Of a DNA stretch of 21,554 bases, positions 8,102 to 19,821 are shown piece after piece. The notes beneath the pieces were generated by a model that saw only the letters and a program-made list of their open reading frames with translations, searched no databases and had not been told where the DNA came from. The stretch spans positions 1 through 21,554 of IMG/VR virus record IMGVR_UViG_3300032331_001711, one strand, 5' to 3'. Made by a program: the position numbers and the translations under genes. Positions within the stretch are counted from its first letter, which is position 1, and each line of letters opens with the position of its first letter. The DNA is from a virus.

Positions 8102-8563
8102 TCATTCCCCTTCTAATTTTTTCATCTCGTCGATGATGTTTTTCAGTTTATTGCCTGAATCAAACATCGACGTTTCATCCGGTTCGACCAGTTCCAATTC
8201 GATCTTTTCCAATTCGGTTTCTTCCGTCTTGTGGATCGTCACCCCAATCGAATCTTGGGTGGCCAGGGTTACCCGCTTCGTTCCAGGCTTGCATTCAACA
8301 ACGTCGCCAGCCTGAAGTTTTTTCATTCCGCTTTCAGTCCACGCAATTATCTCGCCCTTCGCGCACAAAAAGAAGTGGGGATGCTTGTGAACCTTGCCGA
8401 CAATCAGCGTTCCAGCCGGACGAAACACGCGGCGGCAATACATACCTGGCACGAAATAGTGTTCGGTCTGCAATTCCAACTGGGGCATCTTGACCATTTC
8501 GGCTTGCAGCCGGTCGATTTGATCCCGTGTTGGCGTGTCGTTGATGATTTCCAGTTCAGTCAA
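8102..8563 (-). CDS. Cupin-like phage protein with TTG start
   Basis: A 153-aa protein. The open frame extends further upstream but overlaps the 84-aa gene. The best start is TTG at 8563, 6 nt after a GGGGG run and overlapping the previous TGA (TTTTGA). Residues ~25-115 match the small beta-barrel proteins seen near tail genes: MPQLELQTEHYF, then GMYCRRVFRPAGTLIVGKVHKH, KGEIIAWTESG and PGTKRVTLA. H59, H61 and H63 could bind a metal as in cupins. The C-terminal ~35 residues are an acidic helical extension (MFDSGNKLKNIIDEMKKLEGE) that I do not remember from the short family members. A structural or sugar-binding role in the tail is possible but unproven. Confidence 0.8.
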   Translation of the reverse strand: MTELEIINDTPTRDQIDRLQAEMVKMPQLELQTEHYFVPGMYCRRVFRPAGTLIVGKVHKHPHFFLCAKGEIIAWTESGMKKLQAGDVVECKPGTKRVTLATQDSIGVTIHKTEETELEKIELELVEPDETSMFDSGNKLKNIIDEMKKLEGE

Positions 8564-8814
8564 AATGTGCCCCCACCAACGCCATTCAAGGCGGTGAAAT
8601 CTGTGAATTTGCCCGCGGCCGGTACAGTCAAACCAATCGTAGTGCCATTGATTGCACCGCCGTTGATGACTTGATAATTCACCGTTTGCGAAACAACGTT
8701 TGGATTTTGCAGCCAAACAATCCATTCCCGCGCTGGATAACCAGTTCTTGGATCAAGAAAAGCCGATTGCGGAAATCGTATGTTTGTTTCACTAAGCGGA
8801 TTTGGGGCGACCAT
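8560..8814 (-). CDS. 84-aa mini tail-fibre-like protein following the gp10-like gene
   Basis: A short protein. The first ~45 residues (FPQSAFLDPRTGYPAREWIVWLQNP) look like a phage adhesion/anchor segment. Residues ~50-84 contain INGGAINGTTIGLTVPAAGKF, the repeat common in phage fibres; a related copy (ITNSTIDSSVIGG...PAAGYF) is at residues ~52-72 of the 861-aa fibre. It ends in GGGTF, the same five residues that end the 861-aa fibre. It occupies the slot where P22 encodes its tail needle gp26, right after gp10, yet is too short for that trimeric coiled coil. ATG at 8814 overlaps the upstream TAA (TAATG), with GGGGGA as ribosome-binding site. Likely a small virion tail component. Confidence 0.75.
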   Translation of the reverse strand: MVAPNPLSETNIRFPQSAFLDPRTGYPAREWIVWLQNPNVVSQTVNYQVINGGAINGTTIGLTVPAAGKFTDFTALNGVGGGTF

Positions 8815-10271
8815 TAGTTATCCCCCACCGATGCTTTCAGGTTTGCGGAAACAATCACGGCGCGAATTGGGTCAGTCACGGCCACTTCAAAAATGCGATC
8901 ACGCGACCAGCCAAGGCGACGCCACATGGCGCGGTTTTGGTAACGGCCAATTTTGCCGATGCTTACCCAATGCTCGTTTGACCAGGTAGAACCGCCGTCA
9001 TTTGACCATCGCAACATGGCTTGCGGGTCTTCCCCTTGGCCAGTCGGCAAACCAACACCAGGCTGGAATTGGATTTGAAATTCCTCAAAAAATTGGCGTT
9101 GTAAGTCCGAAGTCAGGTGAATGGCACGACGCAAACGACGAATTGTTGCGCCGTTGTCGGTGTAAACGTCATTGTTCAGGCTGTAAATTTTGCCGTTTTC
9201 AAAATCGCCAACCAAGTTTTTGCCAGCGAAAAATGCGTAGCAATTTGATCTGTGGCGATAGTAACCACTAACATCATCCCACGAAAGCCATTTGTGCCAT
9301 TGTTGCGTGGCCAGGTCATAAACCCATGTCAGGTCAATGGAAGGAAAGGTCACAACGTAATTTTCGTGGCCTTCAATTTGATAGGTAAAAGCCACCGCAT
9401 CGGACACATCAACGCCAACCAGGCTTTGTTCCACCGCGTGGGTTGAAACACGGGTAAACCTGTATCCATCCACCACACCGATGATCGCTTGGCCGCGGGT
9501 ATCGCGGCTCACAAACGCAAATGATTCACCGAATCGGGAAACCGAATACTTGGCCGCGCAACCATGTTGCATGGTCGTGCCACCAATCCGCTGAAATGGA
9601 AACGTGGTCAAACCAGGAATGACGCTGCCAACGTCCACCCAAACTTCGGTGGTGACTTCGCCAAGCAAATAAACTTGGCGATGGTCAGCAATCAGCGCCA
9701 CCAAACTGTCAGGGGCGCCGTCTTTGCTGCCGTAATTGCCCGTATTGCTGACGGCAAGGCCAAGGTCAGTCACGGCCCAATTCTGCGTTCCTGGCTCGTT
9801 GTAAATGATGTAGGCGTCAACGGTATCCGTTGAAGTCGCATTTGGCCAAAGGCCGGTTGTATCTTGGGCAAACGTCGAAGTTCCGACGACATAGGTGAAT
9901 CGGCCAGCCGCGCACACAAAAAAAGCCGTCAGGCCATTGTTGGTTGTCACGCTGTCGGTGATTTGAACCTGGTCGTTTCCTGGGATTGTGCCAATCAGCG
10001 TTGCGTTGAATGCTGTGTCAATCAAATAAACGCTTTGTGCCGAAACAGCAACCAGGTATTGACTGCCGGACAAAGCCCGCATTCCACGCACTTTTCCGGC
10101 CGTCAGTTGCAGTTCCTCAACCAATCCAGGGGTAGGGTACAACGCGACAACGCCGCGGCTTCCAGGCTGTTTTGTAGGATCAATTTCAGGATAAAAATTG
10201 ATGCACTCTTGCGCGTCCTGGTAGATTGACGGGGCTTCGTAAGAAGCGCCCACGAAGCCGAAGTCAGGCAT
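8814..10271 (-). CDS. Tail hub / packaged-DNA stabilisation protein, P22 gp10-like
   Basis: A 485-aa protein; P22 gp10 is 472 aa. It forms the tail ring below the portal adaptor that closes the filled head. The N-terminus reads GASYEAPSIYQDAQECINFYPE, matching the family's invariant NxYPE start, then LYPTPGL. The remainder is beta-rich (GMRALSGSQYLVAVS, RQVYLLGEVTTEVW, DLTWVYDLATQQWHKW, SNDGGSTWSNEHW), typical of the Phage_stabilise family's beta-propeller-like body. The ATG at 10271 (MPDFGFVG) is preferred over the upstream ATG at 10298 since it overlaps the previous TAA as TAATG and has GGGGGATTT before it. It directly follows the gp4-like gene, the P22 order. Confidence 0.92.
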   Translation of the reverse strand: MPDFGFVGASYEAPSIYQDAQECINFYPEIDPTKQPGSRGVVALYPTPGLVEELQLTAGKVRGMRALSGSQYLVAVSAQSVYLIDTAFNATLIGTIPGNDQVQITDSVTTNNGLTAFFVCAAGRFTYVVGTSTFAQDTTGLWPNATSTDTVDAYIIYNEPGTQNWAVTDLGLAVSNTGNYGSKDGAPDSLVALIADHRQVYLLGEVTTEVWVDVGSVIPGLTTFPFQRIGGTTMQHGCAAKYSVSRFGESFAFVSRDTRGQAIIGVVDGYRFTRVSTHAVEQSLVGVDVSDAVAFTYQIEGHENYVVTFPSIDLTWVYDLATQQWHKWLSWDDVSGYYRHRSNCYAFFAGKNLVGDFENGKIYSLNNDVYTDNGATIRRLRRAIHLTSDLQRQFFEEFQIQFQPGVGLPTGQGEDPQAMLRWSNDGGSTWSNEHWVSIGKIGRYQNRAMWRRLGWSRDRIFEVAVTDPIRAVIVSANLKASVGDN

Positions 10272-11245
10272 TATGCAAATCCCCCATCCATGATCCAACC
10301 GGCATCTTTCGATTTGCCCATCAACAAAGTGTCAGGATAACGCGCAATTTGCGGTGGTCGCATATTGGTTCGTTTGACTGTTGCTTTGGCTTGGGCTGCC
10401 AAAGAGTTAATCATGGCCATTTGCACCTGGTTCATCTTGCCGTACATTGGCAAAAGTCGTTCAGCCAAACACCAGCGTAATGCGTTGATGTAGCCAGGCG
10501 GCAGCGCAATGTCATTGGTCTGCGCGGTGAACGTGCGGAATTGCGTGTAAGCAAACAAGTGCATTTCGCCCTGGGCGGGATTTGGCCAAACGTAAATCGT
10601 GCCCAGGTTTTCGCTGGCCTGGTAATAAACACCCTTTGGCCAGGGGCCGTTCAGTTGTTTCAGGCCGATCATTTCGTACTGTTCCAGGCTGAACACGGCT
10701 ACGGGGTAGTCTAGGCCGCCGCCATAAATCGGGGCGCCGTTGCTGGTTGTGGTCACGCGCACAAACGCGGATTCGATGGTCAGCGGGCGTTCGTAATAGC
10801 CTTGGATGGTCGTGCTGGCCACGGTCTGCGATTTGCTGACGGTGTATGTGCCGCCCTCGTTGACGTTGCCGCCCCCGCCGGTGACAAAGTTCACAATCGT
10901 GGTTCCGGCTGCAATGCCAGTTCCCGACAACGTTTGGCCAATCGTGATGGCGCCCGAAGTCACACCATTCGCGGGAATGGTCAGGGTTGTGCCGCTAATC
11001 GAACCGGTGAATTGGCAACCGACTTGGCCACCTGGGCCGATGGTGTATTGCGTTTGGTTTTGGACGACCGGAAAAATGATTTCGGTTTTGTAAAAAACCA
11101 TCATGTTTTCGTTCGACCATTGGGCGCACATATCGTTCAACATATCGTAGCCGTCTTGGGCTTCGTCAGCGGTTGGAACCTCACCGGCAGCCAACGCGCC
11201 AATGTCTTTCATGGCGCGGGTCACAATGTCAAATGGCGTTGTCAT
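10271..11245 (-). CDS. Head-completion/portal-closure protein, P22 gp4-like, with insertion
   Basis: A 324-aa protein (P22 gp4 is 166 aa), the first tail accessory factor binding the portal. Residues 1-75 ([46 protein letters not shown]) are the helical family core. Residues ~150-324 ([63 protein letters not shown]) resume it. Between them, residues ~76-149 are a Gly/Thr-rich beta segment ([42 protein letters not shown]) that looks inserted. P22 gp4 also has muramidase activity; I see no clear catalytic residue here. AAGGGACTGAC precedes the ATG at 11245. Followed immediately by gp10, as in P22. Confidence 0.9.
10799..11020 (-). other. Inserted beta-rich domain within the gp4-like gene
   Basis: Codons ~76-149 of the gp4-like gene. 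The stretch has a repeating G-T-T/S-G-T pattern, is very rich in Gly, Thr and Ser, and differs sharply in composition from the helical flanks. It begins soon after TIGPGG and ends before [10 protein letters not shown], two motifs that are near neighbours in simpler gp4-like proteins. As I remember, similar segments (SISGTTLTV...SGTGVAAGTTI...GTYTVSxSQTVAS) occur in many unrelated phage structural proteins. This suggests a mobile surface-exposed module; boundaries are approximate. Confidence 0.55.
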
Positions 11246-13802: not shown

Positions 13803-15068
13803 TTATGAGAAATGATCCTGGACGGTTACAACAACGTTTGTAATTGATGAACCGCCGGAATTGGTTATTGTCAGCGTCAAATTGTTTGAAGATGCGCCAA
13901 TTGACAATGATGCGCCGCTGAAAGCGCGGTAATCTCCAACGCCCAATGATTCGTTGTAATTTGTGCTGCCAATACCGCGCTGATTGATTGTTCCTGACAC
14001 CCAATTACAAATCACTTGGGCTTTCATGTAAATCGTGCCGCCGTTGCTGTTTTCGTATCCAGTAACAAACACGTCAAACCCATAGTATTTTGTGCCGCCT
14101 GGATTGGCCTTCAAAGTAATGGTGGCGCTTCCACTTCCAGCAATTGTTCCGACGCTGATTGTTCGCAAAGCCTGGTTTACAAATGTTGCAAATTGTGACG
14201 CGTCAAAAGATGCGGCATTTGTTGAATTTGTAAATATGGCGTAAGCGGCATTTCCGGCTGTGCCAGCATTAAGTTGCCTAGTTCCAGTAGTGTAAATTTC
14301 ACTTGCGCCGGATGTGAAAGCCGTTCCTTGGCCAATGTAAACGCCTGAAGCATTGAACGAAGATGTGCCGTTGGAATCGGCAAGTGAAATTGTATTAACC
14401 CAACTTGGCGCGGCCGCACCATTACTTTGCAACAAGTAATTTGCAGTTCCAGCGGCCAAAAATGCGGTGGTATCTGCTGCGCTTTGATAGGGCAAATAAC
14501 CGGCGCCGCCGCCAGCCAGGTTGGTGGCTTTGCCAATAGCCACGGTTGATGGCGCAACCCATTGCGGCGCTGTCCCGCTGGAAGTCAAAATGTAATTGGC
14601 GGTTCCAATTCCCAATTTTGTGAAAGCGGTTCCGCTGGCGTAATACACCAGGTCGCCAGCGGTGTAACTGGCCACGCCCGTGCCACCGTTGCCAAGCGCA
14701 AGGGTTCCCGAAACGTGCGTTGTAAGGCCAATTTTCCCCCAGGAAGGGGCGACGCCAACACCGCCGGAAATCAACGCGTTACCGGTCGCCACATCGGCCA
14801 ATTTGGCCAGGCTGGTGGTGGTGTCGGCATAAAGAATGTCGCCCACCGCGTAAGATGTTTGGCCAGTACCGCCAGCCGTTGCCGGAACAATTTTCCATCC
14901 AATAACCTGGATGGCGTTGGCATTGTCTTTGTAGAACAATTTGCCGTCGGTAATGTTGATGGCGAGTTCGGAACCCAATGTCGAATTGGTCAGATTTCCA
15001 GCCGCGGGCGCTTGCGACGCCGTGGTGCTGGAATAAATCAGAATCGGTGTGTAGCCAGTTTGTGACAT
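13803..15068 (-). CDS. Tail-fibre protein with shared C-terminal domain
   Basis: A 421-aa fibre. Residues 1-58 (STTASQAPAAGNLTNSTLGS, ELAINITDGKLFYKD) are a common N-terminal attachment segment. Residues ~65-215 hold triple-beta-type fibre repeats (GGTGQTSYAVGDILYA, LADVATGNALISGGVG, GGTGVASYTAGDLVYY, ATNLAGGGAG). Residues ~300-421 form a distinct terminal domain (TISVGTIAGSGSATITL, DYRAFSGASL, SSNNLTLTITNSGG) like the C-terminus of the tailspike. It overlaps the 861-aa gene as TTTTAATG, with GGGGG in that gene's last codons as ribosome-binding site. Probably an adhesin or structural fibre of the tail. Its repeats at 14703-14801 are close to a stretch of the 861-aa gene. Confidence 0.88.
   Translation of the reverse strand: MSQTGYTPILIYSSTTASQAPAAGNLTNSTLGSELAINITDGKLFYKDNANAIQVIGWKIVPATAGGTGQTSYAVGDILYADTTTSLAKLADVATGNALISGGVGVAPSWGKIGLTTHVSGTLALGNGGTGVASYTAGDLVYYASGTAFTKLGIGTANYILTSSGTAPQWVAPSTVAIGKATNLAGGGAGYLPYQSAADTTAFLAAGTANYLLQSNGAAAPSWVNTISLADSNGTSSFNASGVYIGQGTAFTSGASEIYTTGTRQLNAGTAGNAAYAIFTNSTNAASFDASQFATFVNQALRTISVGTIAGSGSATITLKANPGGTKYYGFDVFVTGYENSNGGTIYMKAQVICNWVSGTINQRGIGSTNYNESLGVGDYRAFSGASLSIGASSNNLTLTITNSGGSSITNVVVTVQDHFS
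14703..14801 (-). repeat. Fibre module copy A (matches 16640-16741)
   Basis: Encodes LADVATGNALISGGVGVAPS and the following WGKIGLTTHVSGTL in the 421-aa fibre, nearly the same as the 861-aa fibre. By eye the DNA agrees at well over two thirds of positions, including AAATCAA and CCGCCGGAAATCAA-like stretches on the + strand, so the copy is visible at both DNA and protein level. Confidence 0.8.
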
Positions 15069-17653
15069 TAAAAGGTTCCCCCGCCAGTTCCACCGGTCAC
15101 GGTCAAAACGCCGGTAGATGGATTAAATTTGAGTTTAGTGCTTGACACCTTTGCGGGCAAGTTTCCGGTCGTGCTGGTCACCCATGTCAGGTACATATCA
15201 GCCGAAGTCGTTGTGTCGTCGGTGATTGCGATATTCGTTGCATTTGTTGCGTTTGTTGCACTTCCCGCGCTGCCATCAATCGACACGCCGTTCAATGTTT
15301 GGCTGGCGCTGGTGCGGTTCAACGCGATTCCGGTCGTTCCAATGTAAACGGTCGAATTCCCCAACACGGTCGAAGGGATCGTGCCGGTCAATTGGCCAGC
15401 CGGAATGCTGGTCAGGCTGGCAGCCGATCCGCTGAACACCGTGGCCGACAACGTGCCGGTGGACGGGTTGAATTGCAATTTCGTGCTGCTAACATATTCC
15501 GTGCCCAGGTTGCCGGTCGTTTGATTGGCAAAAAGCGGATACCTGGTCGCGTTGGTCGTCGTGTCGTCGGTCACCGTCGCGTAAGCGGTAGGCGTCACCC
15601 AGGACGGGGCCGAAGTCCCGTTCGATTGCAGCACCTTGTTTGCGTCACCGGCTGCGGAAGCCAGGAACGACGTTGTACCGGCCGCGGATTGGTAGGGAAT
15701 ACTAGCGGCAGCACCGCCCGCCAAATTCGTCGCTGTCCCCACGGAAACGCTGCTGGCGGTCACGTTGCGGAAGTATGCGCCCGCGGCATAGTATTGCAAC
15801 AAATCATTGTTGGCTAGGCCGGACACTTGAACGTTTTGAATGTCGTTCAATGTCGGGCCGATGAAAACCTTGACCTGGATCGAACCATTGGTTCCGCCCG
15901 CGGCTTTGGTCACCACGCCAATTTGCACTTTGATGTTTGGCGCCACCGGTTGGGTTTTTGTGTAACCGCCAACAACGGTTGGGTCGTACCAAAGCGCGTC
16001 GCCGTCAGCATAGCCAGGCGAAGTCGATAAATCGTGGACGATACCGAACGCGGTGATGCGACCAAACGAATTTTTGGCAATGTCTTCGGTGGCCAAACCA
16101 ATGATGTGCGTCGGATCGGTCATGCCAATCGGGGCGGGTTCGAAGGTCACATAACCGGTCGTTCCGTATGCGCCCGACACGGCCACAACCTGGCCATTCG
16201 TAATGGCTTGCGATGCGCGGCCGTAAATGAAAATTTCCTCACCGATCTGTTGGGTGATGTTGTTTTGTTTGAAGTTCAACGTATCGCTGGACGAATCAAA
16301 CCACATCGTTCCAATCGGCGTGGATGCGGGAATCGAACCCGAAAACTGAACCGACCTGGCGCCAGCCAAATTGGCGCTGTCGTCAATCGTGATGCCGCTG
16401 TTTTGAATCAGTTTGCCCGTCGTGCCGTCAAATCGGGCGATGGCGTTGTCCGTGGCGCTGCCTGGGCCTGACACATCACCATTGCCGTTTGTCGTCCATG
16501 TAGGGGCGCCAGCGCCGTTTGAAGTCAATACCTGGCCAGCGGTTCCAACTGAAGTGAACGCATAAGCCGTGCCGTTTCCGTAAGCCACCGCGCCAGCCGT
16601 TGGCGTTGCACCGTCGCCGGTTCCACCGTTGGCAATCGGCAGCGTTCCGGAAACATGGGTGGCCAAGCCAATTTTTCCCCAGGTTGGCGCTGCGCCAACG
16701 CCGCCGGAAATCAAAGCATTGCCCGTGGCCACGTCGGCCAGGGTGGATAAAGTGGTCGCACCGGACGCGTAAATAATGTCGCCGATGGTGTAACTGGTCA
16801 GGCCCGTGCCGCCTTTGGCAACCGCAATTGTGGTTGCGTTCCAGGTTCCAGTTGCAATTGTGCCCAGGGTGGTGATCGACGTTTGACCAGGATACGTGTC
16901 GCTGATCTTGATGCCCGACGATGAAACGTCGATGGTCGTGCCGTTCGCTTTGACTGAAAACTGATTCGAAATCAGTTGCAAACCATTGCCCGCGGTATAT
17001 GTGCCCACGCCTGAAAACTGCGACCAGGGCATGGCTGTCACATTGATTGTGCCGGTGCGCGATGCGGTGGTCACCCAACCGGTGGATGCCAACGTGGCGC
17101 CGTCTTCAATGAACGTGAATGCGCCTGGCACTTCCGACCAAACGTTCATGTCGCTGGTGCGTGTCCATCCGCTGGCGCTGGCTGCATAAATGCCGTTTTC
17201 AGCCTGGGCGGTTTGATTCTTGACCAGGATGCGATCGCCCGCGGTCAGCGTGGAAATCCAATCGCCACCAGCCTGGACGGCCAGGCCGGATAACGTGATG
17301 TTGTTTGTGGTTGCGTAAACGCACGACGCTTTCACATCCAAACCTTGGGCGACGGAATCGACATAAGCCTTGTTGGCAATGTCGGTGTCGGCCGAAGGCG
17401 ACGTGGCCACCTGGCCGGTGACGGCGTAAATGTTTGTGAAATAACCGGCTGCGGGCGCGGTTCCACCAATCACCGATGAATCAATCGTGCTGTTGGTGAT
17501 CGTCAAACCCGATTGAATCGGGTTAATGTTGGCGTAAAACGGTGTTCCGGCGGGGCCGATGAACGTGATTAAATCAAACGTCGGTTCAGGCTGAAAAAGC
17601 GCCTGAACCGGTTTGATGTTGGTCGTGTTCGTGACAGCGGTGCTGTTCGACAT
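15068..17653 (-). CDS. Major tail-fibre protein, repeat-rich (861 aa)
   Basis: The first adhesion gene of the block. Residues 1-75 include ITNSTIDSS..GGTAPAAGYF, the fibre anchor repeat. ANKAYVDSVAQGLDVKAS (~93-110), RILVKNQTAQAENGIY (~141-156) and DGATLASTGWV (~184-194) form the widespread phage-fibre KAYVD/VLVKNQ domain. Residues ~278-340 and ~640-685 are modules shared with the 421-aa fibre. Residues ~470-600 (EIFIYGRASQ, VSGAYGTTGYVTF, GLATEDIAKNSFGRITAFG) are a beta domain. Two DDTTT repeats end the protein, which closes in GGGTF. ATG at 17653 follows TTAAGGGGGCGTC. No depolymerase motif seen; a non-enzymatic fibre is likely. Confidence 0.88.
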   Translation of the reverse strand: MSNSTAVTNTTNIKPVQALFQPEPTFDLITFIGPAGTPFYANINPIQSGLTITNSTIDSSVIGGTAPAAGYFTNIYAVTGQVATSPSADTDIANKAYVDSVAQGLDVKASCVYATTNNITLSGLAVQAGGDWISTLTAGDRILVKNQTAQAENGIYAASASGWTRTSDMNVWSEVPGAFTFIEDGATLASTGWVTTASRTGTINVTAMPWSQFSGVGTYTAGNGLQLISNQFSVKANGTTIDVSSSGIKISDTYPGQTSITTLGTIATGTWNATTIAVAKGGTGLTSYTIGDIIYASGATTLSTLADVATGNALISGGVGAAPTWGKIGLATHVSGTLPIANGGTGDGATPTAGAVAYGNGTAYAFTSVGTAGQVLTSNGAGAPTWTTNGNGDVSGPGSATDNAIARFDGTTGKLIQNSGITIDDSANLAGARSVQFSGSIPASTPIGTMWFDSSSDTLNFKQNNITQQIGEEIFIYGRASQAITNGQVVAVSGAYGTTGYVTFEPAPIGMTDPTHIIGLATEDIAKNSFGRITAFGIVHDLSTSPGYADGDALWYDPTVVGGYTKTQPVAPNIKVQIGVVTKAAGGTNGSIQVKVFIGPTLNDIQNVQVSGLANNDLLQYYAAGAYFRNVTASSVSVGTATNLAGGAAASIPYQSAAGTTSFLASAAGDANKVLQSNGTSAPSWVTPTAYATVTDDTTTNATRYPLFANQTTGNLGTEYVSSTKLQFNPSTGTLSATVFSGSAASLTSIPAGQLTGTIPSTVLGNSTVYIGTTGIALNRTSASQTLNGVSIDGSAGSATNATNATNIAITDDTTTSADMYLTWVTSTTGNLPAKVSSTKLKFNPSTGVLTVTGGTGGGTF
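15101..15223 (-). repeat. DDTTT fibre repeat, copy 2
   Basis: Residues 811-851 of the 861-aa fibre (TDDTTTSADMYLTWVTSTTG...VSSTKLKFNPSTGVL). Same register as the copy at 15428-15571: DDTTT, TTGNL, VSSTKL-FNPSTG. Such repeats usually fold as trimeric beta shaft segments. Confidence 0.85.
15428..15571 (-). repeat. DDTTT fibre repeat, copy 1
   Basis: Residues 695-742 of the 861-aa fibre (TDDTTTNATRYPLFANQTTG...VSSTKLQFNPSTGTL). Matches the copy nearer the C-terminus; the two are separated by ~70 residues containing SATNATNATN and GQLTGTIPS. Confidence 0.85.
16640..16741 (-). repeat. Fibre module copy B (matches 14703-14801)
   Basis: Residues ~305-338 of the 861-aa fibre (LADVATGNALISGGVGAAPT, then WGKIGLATHVSGTL). 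The counterpart in the 421-aa fibre differs at only a few residues, and the DNA is also similar, so one copy was probably derived from the other by duplication or recombination. Confidence 0.8.
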
Positions 17654-18576: not shown

Positions 18577-19821
18577 TTAGGCTGCGACGCGGCAAGCCAA
18601 TTCGGGGTACAAAGGCGCCCAACCGTACAACACATCCAAACGCGTAGGAATGGAATCGTTGTTGATCGTGTATTGACGAACAACACGGATGGACAAACCA
18701 AGGTCTTTGTCGGACGCACGGCCCGCAAAGTGAACCCCGTCGGGCAACTCAAGGTCAGCCGTGGCCAAGGTCGCAAAATTCTTGTGGAATACCAAGTTTT
18801 GCGGGCTGGTTGTGCCGGTGTTGTTGAACGGTGTCACGGCAGCGGTGGCGCTGGTGGAAGTCACAACAACGTTTTGGAATTGGCCGCCGGTGATGATCGC
18901 GGGCGAAACAGTCACGGCCGTGCCACCAGTTGCGACGGCAGTAGTAGCCATCACAACGAAGTTGCGAAGTTTGCCGGAACCGTAGGCTGCGCGGTTTTGG
19001 GGGTTGACAGCGTAAACGCCAGCAATTTGGATCACGTCGCCCTGGTTCAAAGTCAATGCTGACGATGCGGTCAAAGTAACGGAACCGAATTGTGCCCAAC
19101 CGGTAGCAATACCGAAGGAAGCGGAAGTGGTGTCAACAGTCAGGGTTTTGCCGCTGTAAGAACCAAAAGTTTGGTTCACAACGTTCTGATCCATGTACCA
19201 GTTCATGCCAGCGGAATCGCGGCCCATCATGCCTTTGGTGTATTGCTTGCCGATCACGTCGGAAGGAACAAACAAACCTTTCAGGCTGTCAACGATGGTT
19301 GCGGAAGTGAAGGGCTCCACCACGCAAGAACGGCGACCGTCGCGGGGTGCGCCTTCGCTGTCCAGGTAAGCGCCAGCGGTCAAGTACGTAATCAGGCCGG
19401 TGGGCGGTGTGCCAGCCGTGCCGACGATGTTGGCCACGTTGTTTTTGGCCATAGTCAGGCCGTCCAAGTCCATTTTGTTGGCGATGGCAGCAACAGCGGG
19501 CTTCAGAATGCGGTCGCTGAACATATCCAAAGACAAGGCCAAATCCTGGGTCGTGAATTGGGTATCGACGTGGAATTGGGTGGACAAAGTAACTGGCACG
19601 GAAGTTTCGTTGAAGTCTTCAACGTTCAGCGCGGGGCCAGTAGTACCGATGAATCGGCCAGGACGACGGACGTTCAGGGTGTTACCGATTTTTGCGCCGG
19701 TGACAGCAAATTGGTCGTCGTATTCGCGGGTGACGTTGTTTGTGAACGTCAATTCGTTTTCCAAAACCATCAACGCTTCGTTGGTGATTTTTGAAATCGT
19801 CAGTAAATTGTTTCCAGACAT
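18577..19821 (-). CDS. Major capsid (coat) protein, P22 coat family
   Basis: A 414-aa protein; P22 coat is 430 aa. The sequence has the family's layout: an N-arm (NEALMVLENELTFTNNVTRE), ANKMDLDGLTMAKNN, a central GMMGRDSAGMNWYMDQNVV stretch, and an inserted-domain-like region with SVTLTASSALTLNQGDVIQI and AGVYAVNPQNR. The C-terminal part has LSIRVVRQYTINNDSIPTRL and DVLYGWAPLYPELACRVA. It directly follows the scaffold, as in P22. ATTAGGAAAACAAA precedes the ATG at 19821. It should form the T=7-type shell. A hairpin after the stop may keep coat mRNA abundant relative to downstream genes. Confidence 0.93.
   Translation of the reverse strand: MSGNNLLTISKITNEALMVLENELTFTNNVTREYDDQFAVTGAKIGNTLNVRRPGRFIGTTGPALNVEDFNETSVPVTLSTQFHVDTQFTTQDLALSLDMFSDRILKPAVAAIANKMDLDGLTMAKNNVANIVGTAGTPPTGLITYLTAGAYLDSEGAPRDGRRSCVVEPFTSATIVDSLKGLFVPSDVIGKQYTKGMMGRDSAGMNWYMDQNVVNQTFGSYSGKTLTVDTTSASFGIATGWAQFGSVTLTASSALTLNQGDVIQIAGVYAVNPQNRAAYGSGKLRNFVVMATTAVATGGTAVTVSPAIITGGQFQNVVVTSTSATAAVTPFNNTGTTSPQNLVFHKNFATLATADLELPDGVHFAGRASDKDLGLSIRVVRQYTINNDSIPTRLDVLYGWAPLYPELACRVAA

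Follow-up and report, generated by a model that had tools for sequence, protein, structure and literature searches.

A predicted beta-barrel module inserted in a phage head-tail adaptor and reused in other virion proteins

The adaptor gene and the inserted segment

The window analysed in this study is the whole stretch of 21,554 nucleotides of the IMG/VR virus record IMGVR_UViG_3300032331_001711. It contains a P22-like structural gene block, in which the P22-type coat protein is encoded at 18577..19821 on the minus strand (PF11651, E 1.1e-40). An ORF at 10271–11245 (minus strand) encodes a protein of 324 aa and adjoins the gene of a gp10-type, or nozzle, protein at 8814..10298 (minus strand), which was assigned by its match to Phage_stabilise (PF11134, 35.5 bits with the cut-off of 25). 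The SU10_adaptor family of Pfam (PF24175) matches residues 141–290 of the 324-aa protein with 35.5 bits (cut-off 27), and phrog_637 (head-tail adaptor Ad3) from PHROGs matches residues 1–52 (E 5.5e-5). These matches and the adaptor fold of its model identify the protein as a P22 gp4 / T7 gp11 / SU10-type head-tail adaptor. It resembles P22 gp4, T7 gp11 and SU10 gp11 in the profile match, the fold and the adjacency to gp10, and differs from them in having an extra barrel in the beta region.

The N-terminal part of the adaptor (residues 1–75, 11021..11245, minus strand) consists in the model of two helices followed by the opening strands of the beta region, and carries the phrog_637 match. The C-terminal part (residues 150–324 and the stop codon, 10271..10798, minus strand) contains the remaining beta region and the C-terminal helices, and is matched by PF24175. 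Between them, residues 76–149 (10799..11020, minus strand) form the segment further referred to as the module. The initial annotation had described a Gly/Thr/Ser-rich segment of about 74 residues at this place; its coordinates, ORF and junctions hold, and so does the composition, with Gly, Thr and Ser making up 52.7% of residues 76–149 versus 18.8% of the remaining adaptor. The G+C content of the module is 0.60, and that of its flanks is 0.51 and 0.54.

Two ORFs of the tail region, 8560–8814 and 15068–17653 (both on the minus strand), have the near-identical C-termini GVGGGTF and GGTGGGTF, respectively, which are perhaps a shared C-terminal signal. One more ORF of the tail gene region, 8102–8725 (minus strand), shows a weak cupin match of 20.4 bits, below the Pfam cut-off of 27.2.

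The spacing between YTIG and RP equals 8 residues in six relatives of 232–241 aa, versus 82 residues in the studied adaptor. These module-free adaptors come from Rhodoferax phage P26218, EBPR podovirus 1, Pseudomonas phage PAE2, ctTUS972, ctfPj964 and Vibrio phage VvAW1. The same YTIG/RP site is occupied in some relatives by a tandem array of two or three modules. In a set of 230 unique ORFs of the gp4 type, with fragments counted, the number of module copies is zero in 32, one in 191, two in 5 and three in 2; these are counts of ORFs in loci fetched by similarity, partly overlapping stretches of the same contigs, and not natural frequencies. Both the gp4-type and the gp10-type ORFs were counted from single-pass searches, and no ORF is common to the two sets. 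An iterated gp4 search drifted into gp10 via the module (61 ORFs shared), and its counts were dropped. The adaptor alignment was made without 7 of the 81 representatives, which were fragment-like, and the module alignment included about 91 of the 124 module representatives and 4 more.

All of the best 80 of 598 IMG/VR relatives match across residues 1–323/324, whereas in the distant adaptors the segment is absent and its flanks meet directly. Judging from these alignments and from the models described below, residues 76–149 are a real inserted domain, placed in frame, that would leave the adaptor fold intact.

The adaptor of Xanthomonas phage PBR31 (locus L004, 2992–3945) is interrupted at the junction used by the module, by an insert similar to it in size. 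It was rejected as an instance of the same module, given that the module profile scores it at 7.5 bits only, and was left as another or very diverged insert. Hence, the junction may be a repeated landing place.

Predicted structure of the adaptor and of the module

In the AlphaFold2 model of the adaptor (75 rows, mean pLDDT 81.8, pTM 0.70), helices 4–15 and 26–43 on one side and 250–267 and 273–294 on the other flank a beta region of about 180 residues (53–234). The strands of the module fall inside this region, between strand 66–69 and strand 154–168. According to VIA-align 2, the model matches P22 gp4 (8u10_m, Z 15.3, 112 residues, rmsd 2.1), T7 gp11 (6r21_N, Z 11.4, 172 residues, rmsd 4.5) and the SU10 adaptor (7z47_B, Z 9.5, 192 residues, rmsd 3.4). 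The claim of the initial annotation that the segment splits the helical core was inexact: the helices are parted by the beta region of about 180 residues, of which the segment makes up only 74. Similarly, the adaptor exceeds P22 gp4 in length only partly because of the insert; the module-free relatives still have 232–241 aa, since a beta domain missing from P22 gp4 is present in adaptors of the T7/SU10 type, as stated in sections of PMC6702177 and PMC9509320.

The beta domain of the T7 and SU10 adaptors is described in the same sections as a fibre dock, which P22 and Sf6 do not have; a passage of PMC6702177 depicts P22 gp4 as entirely devoid of the beta region. By overall fold match and position, the module-bearing beta region of the studied adaptor appears to resemble the fibre dock of T7 and SU10. 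The module likely points outward on the surface of the head-tail joint, given this fibre-dock position.

Modelled alone (96 rows), the module yields a mean pLDDT of 93.1 and pTM of 0.84, with five strands, the first and the last of them long. It is predicted to fold on its own as a small barrel resembling domain II of EF-Tu/IF2 and chain 1 of 8ECI. None of 108 Foldseek matches of the module in the PDB reaches E<=1e-3. The best of them is weak (8eci_1, Arthrobacter phage Bridgette, 30% identity, E 5.7e-3, TMq 0.66); VIA-align 2 aligns 67 residues of this chain with Z 7.6 and rmsd 2.5. This chain is a separate one of 124 residues, unlike the inserted module, and its homology to the module is not established by sequence. 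Bridgette is not mentioned in passages of PMC10635136.

The list produced by VIA-align 2 for the module consists almost entirely of domain II barrels of translation factors, with Z up to 8.4 (rmsd 2.4, 72 residues), although by the tool's own warning Z near 8 can reflect a common arrangement only. The Foldseek E-value of EF-Tu (8rdw_H) is 5.3. The likeness to the EF-Tu/IF2 barrels is therefore one of fold only, at 6–16% identity, and the module has no GTPase context. No Ig fold is present among the listed Foldseek and VIA-align 2 matches of the module model, an absence that is not exclusive of Ig.

Sequence searches of solved structures yielded nothing credible: for the whole adaptor they gave antibody chains only (best E 0.014), and for residues 76–149 the best E-value was 0.35. 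The 96-row profile of the module searched against solved chains had a best E of 0.58, and 8ECI chain 1 was not among its matches at E<=5.

Among predicted structures of viral proteins, 18 of 357 matches of the module model reach E<=1e-3. These include an HK97 major capsid protein (48% identity) and a P22 gp10 protein (42%), as well as a pectate lyase protein, a tip attachment protein J and a repeat protein of the side tail fibre. Two collagen-repeat proteins of the giant virus Indivirus ILV1 (BFVD A0A1V0SCQ2 and A0A1V0SDM6) also match the module model, with 45% and 32% identity, respectively.

Occurrence of the module outside the adaptor

Residues 76–149 have no Pfam match at E<=1. Taken alone, they match phrog_21413 (E 6e-12) and phrog_38233 (E 1.4e-10), neither of which is an adaptor family. 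These two families, phrog_38233 (tail fiber protein, profile of 896 positions) and phrog_21413 (unknown, 595 positions), hold a module-like stretch within longer proteins. When 34,728 six-frame ORFs from the fetched loci were searched with a profile grown from the segment, 516 matched at E<=1e-3, and none matched after reversal of the same 34,728 sequences, even at E<=1; since the loci were chosen by similarity, this comparison is a control of specificity and not a frequency.

The nearest additional carrier is gp10. In related phages, the alignment places modules at one site of the neighbouring gp10, usually two in tandem; no module was detected by the module profile in gp10 of the studied DNA (8814–10298). 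Among 240 unique gp10-type ORFs, again including fragments and with the same reservation as for gp4, 131 contain no copies, 3 contain one, 101 two, 2 three and 3 four. These gp10 counts are after merging of overlapping hits; without merging, six ORFs had five copies.

Beyond gp4 and gp10, the module was found in 81 ORFs forming 42 clusters, which were built on similarity outside the module, so that several may represent one protein class. For naming of the host proteins, 27 of the 81 ORFs were scanned with PHROGs and 27 with Pfam, the two sets being nearly the same. The named hosts include a tail tube protein (L233, PF18906), a major tail protein (L229, phrog_807), tail sheaths (phrog_205/DUF3383) together with neck terminators (PF23961) in L190 and L354, a baseplate J protein (L231, PF04865), a beta-helix spike (L131, PF12708), a T7-type fibre (L378, PF03906), a head protein (L354, phrog_1912) and a minor capsid or cement protein with three tandem copies (L350, PF23982 and PF22758). 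An exception to the phage-like hosts is L382, a Bacteroidota protein that combines five tandem copies with GEVED, fn3 and Por_Secre_tail domains. Several of the scanned ORFs, such as those of L237 and L370, have no match in PHROGs or Pfam besides the module, and that of L359 has none whatever. Twenty-two of the 81 ORFs, or their cluster mates, come from contigs that hold gp4-type genes as well, or from uncultured sequence only.

Several module-bearing ORFs may be encoded close to each other. Of three contigs from bacterial genomes, L354 and L363 have four module-bearing stop-to-stop ORFs each, and L364 has three; in each contig these ORFs belong to one phage-like region, and in L354 they include the head protein, the neck terminator and the tail sheath. 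The ORF 3332–6253 of L225 encodes a tail protein with two modules, and has a Pfam match to E1_FCCH elsewhere, at residues 855–912.

In 25 whole records, all chosen as holding matches, the hits fall in frames of gp4 length (324–399 aa) and gp10 length (621–712 aa), the assignment to gp4 or gp10 being based on the frame size in aa. Outside these length classes, one record has a hit in an ORF of 509 aa, and two records have hits in very large frames (4028 and 5746 aa). Searches by tblastn against isolate phages gave one record at E<=1e-3 for residues 76–149 and five records at E<=1 for another module, and the search against plasmids gave none at E<=1; in both collections the low-complexity filter may hide more.

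The suggestion of the initial annotation that the segment is a transferable module also present in unrelated phage structural proteins is thus supported by the two non-adaptor PHROGs, by gp10 and by the 81 further ORFs, with hosts from sheath to spike. It had also named a contrary outcome, in which the segment is common to all close gp4 homologues and has no matches outside gp4 proteins; the first half of this holds for the best 80 of 598 relatives, and the second is false. Given the occurrence in many unrelated particle proteins, the data suggest that phages share the barrel as an add-on part.

Selection, history and possible role

Median dN/dS of the module is 0.111 and that of the core is 0.057 (292 unsaturated pairs from 169 single-module adaptors); therefore, the module is maintained by purifying selection, somewhat less strictly than the core. 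Median dS in the same 292 pairs equals 0.71 for the module and 1.06 for the core, and the median identity in 5000 sampled adaptor pairs is 68.1% and 68.8%, respectively.

In 193 dereplicated loci with the full gene pair, the copy numbers in gp4 and gp10 are (0,0) in 24 loci, (1,0) in 70, (1,2) in 88, (1,3) in 1, (1,4) in 4, (2,0) in 3, (2,2) in 2 and (3,2) in 1. On the tree of these loci, module presence changes once in gp4 and once in gp10, and the gp4 copy number changes seven times; the tree was built by FastTree, has long branches and similarity-chosen loci, and gain and loss are not distinguishable by this count. Repeated gain or loss of gp10 modules had been expected in the clade, but only the one change was seen. 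Recent copying between gp4 and gp10 within a genome was not seen either: the mean identity of gp4 and gp10 modules is 51.0% within genomes (192 comparisons) and 51.0% between them (600). Because they are equally alike in both cases, no recent hopping is seen. With its single changes of presence on the tree, the module behaves as a stable part within the studied phage group. This stability and the equal identities indicate that transfer between genes is older or rarer than the clade.

Mobile beta domains of another kind are known in phages. Fraser is said to have described promiscuous Ig-like domains on phage virion proteins in 2006. Such domains are, likewise, accessory beta domains of many virion-protein classes, often inserted or in tandem, and a similar role has been proposed for them; in contrast, the module stretches have no Ig match in Pfam, and the listed fold matches are barrels of the EF-Tu/IF2 type. 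In the nozzle of the short-tailed phage SU10, as sections of PMC9509320 describe, tandem Ig-like domains are inserted in the nozzle protein; gp10 of the relatives studied here similarly has tandem modules at one site, although the predicted fold differs. According to portions of PMC13033339, M. smegmatis, unlike E. coli, is labelled by the Ig-like domains of phage Douge in isolated form, and excerpts of PMC9230969 propose that extra Ig-like domains on tail sheaths aid adhesion, stability or appendages.

The adhesive role considered here is based on the analogy with the phage Ig-like domains. The self-folding barrel, inserted in frame, would stand in a beta region like the fibre dock while the adaptor fold is preserved. 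If the adaptor is dodecameric like its relatives, each virion would bear 12 module copies in a ring below the head, and the gp10 copies of related phages would add modules lower on the same tail. By sequence, the same domain is reused in many other virion proteins, often in tandem and sometimes in several neighbouring genes of a phage; any outward-facing loop of a virion protein could accommodate it. Many such copies acting together may provide weak general contact with the host surface, probably with glycans. Under this reading, the module would be an autonomous inserted barrel, reused across virion proteins, that most likely serves as a weak multivalent host-surface adhesin; our confidence in the reading as a whole is evenly balanced. 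We counted in its favour the spacing of 8 versus 82 residues, the lone fold, the wide reuse (also in several neighbouring genes of one contig), the selection, the preserved adaptor fold and the analogy with the Douge domains, and against it the stability in the clade, dN/dS about twice that of the core, the one non-phage-like host (L382) and the origin of the 22 further ORFs noted above.

An unlikely explanation is that the module extends the fibre dock, gripping tail fibres or spikes at the dock (in some phages, at the nozzle) and fixing their orientation. The place of the module, in a beta region corresponding to the dock of T7 and SU10, agrees with it, as do the SU10 dock loops, which protrude radially and hold the fibres, and the nozzle with its inserted Ig-like domains (in sections of PMC9509320). 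A dock extension accounts poorly, however, for the modules in sheath, tail tube, terminator and cement proteins, which have no known docking role, and for the module-free adaptors among the relatives.

We regard as rather improbable that the module clamps neighbouring subunits and reinforces the particle in the manner of cement proteins. The closest solved structure by Foldseek, at 30% identity, belongs to Bridgette, which has dimeric capsid cement proteins according to portions of PMC13033339, and 8ECI chain 1 may be one of these; the cement or minor capsid protein of L350 has modules in tandem. Against this, the 8ECI match is weak (E 5.7e-3, with 0 of 108 at 1e-3) and absent from the profile search at E<=5, and tandem arrays at one loop would suggest projecting appendages rather than clamps.

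Still another explanation, quite improbable in our opinion, treats the module as a tolerated passenger, spread among outward loops by recombination and largely lacking a function itself. The wide spread across unrelated proteins, the seven changes of gp4 copy number on the tree and the G+C content exceeding that of both flanks are compatible with a passenger, but purifying selection (median dN/dS 0.111), identity at the level of the core (68.1% vs 68.8%) and retention in all of the best 80 of 598 relatives speak against it. Finally, that the segment is an ancestral part of the adaptor lost by distant relatives is hardly credible: its presence in all of these 80 relatives and a tree count blind to gain versus loss would allow it, but the module is predicted to fold alone, occurs in unrelated proteins, repeats in tandem and is absent from the six adaptors of P26218, EBPR podovirus 1, PAE2, ctTUS972, ctfPj964 and VvAW1.

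Returning to the adhesin, a broader form of this proposal is that the module represents a non-Ig mobile domain family serving as a general virion add-on in phages with short, long and contractile tails. Such a family would often occupy several proteins per virion and occur in tandem, on capsid, cement, adaptor, nozzle, terminator, tube, sheath, baseplate, fibre and spike; it would have spread to giant viruses and to surface proteins of bacteria, and would form a ring of at least 12 adhesive barrels at the head-tail joint of the studied group. We put this forward tentatively, as having slightly less than an even chance of being correct. Promiscuous beta domains on virion proteins are known, so far mainly Ig-like ones; what appears to be new is the different predicted fold and the lack of a Pfam match. 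No description of the module was found in the open-licence literature, the searching of which was mostly aimed at its setting, and four motif strings of the module had no match in open-licence papers. In portions of Smug et al. 2023 (PMC10684548), the mosaicism of phage domains is mapped, and domain databases are noted to cover several tail classes poorly.

The module also presents a hazard for annotation: phrog_38233, named 'tail fiber protein', hits adaptor, sheath and terminator via the module alone, and the name fits the host protein rather than the module. The matches in giant viruses, if borne out by sequence, would link surface proteins of phages and giant viruses. At one junction, the module is present in some adaptors and absent from others, which offers a natural comparison. 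A second accessory module with a reach like that of the Ig-like domains would provide a defined case for studying why phages add domains to their virions and how insertions spread through essential genes.
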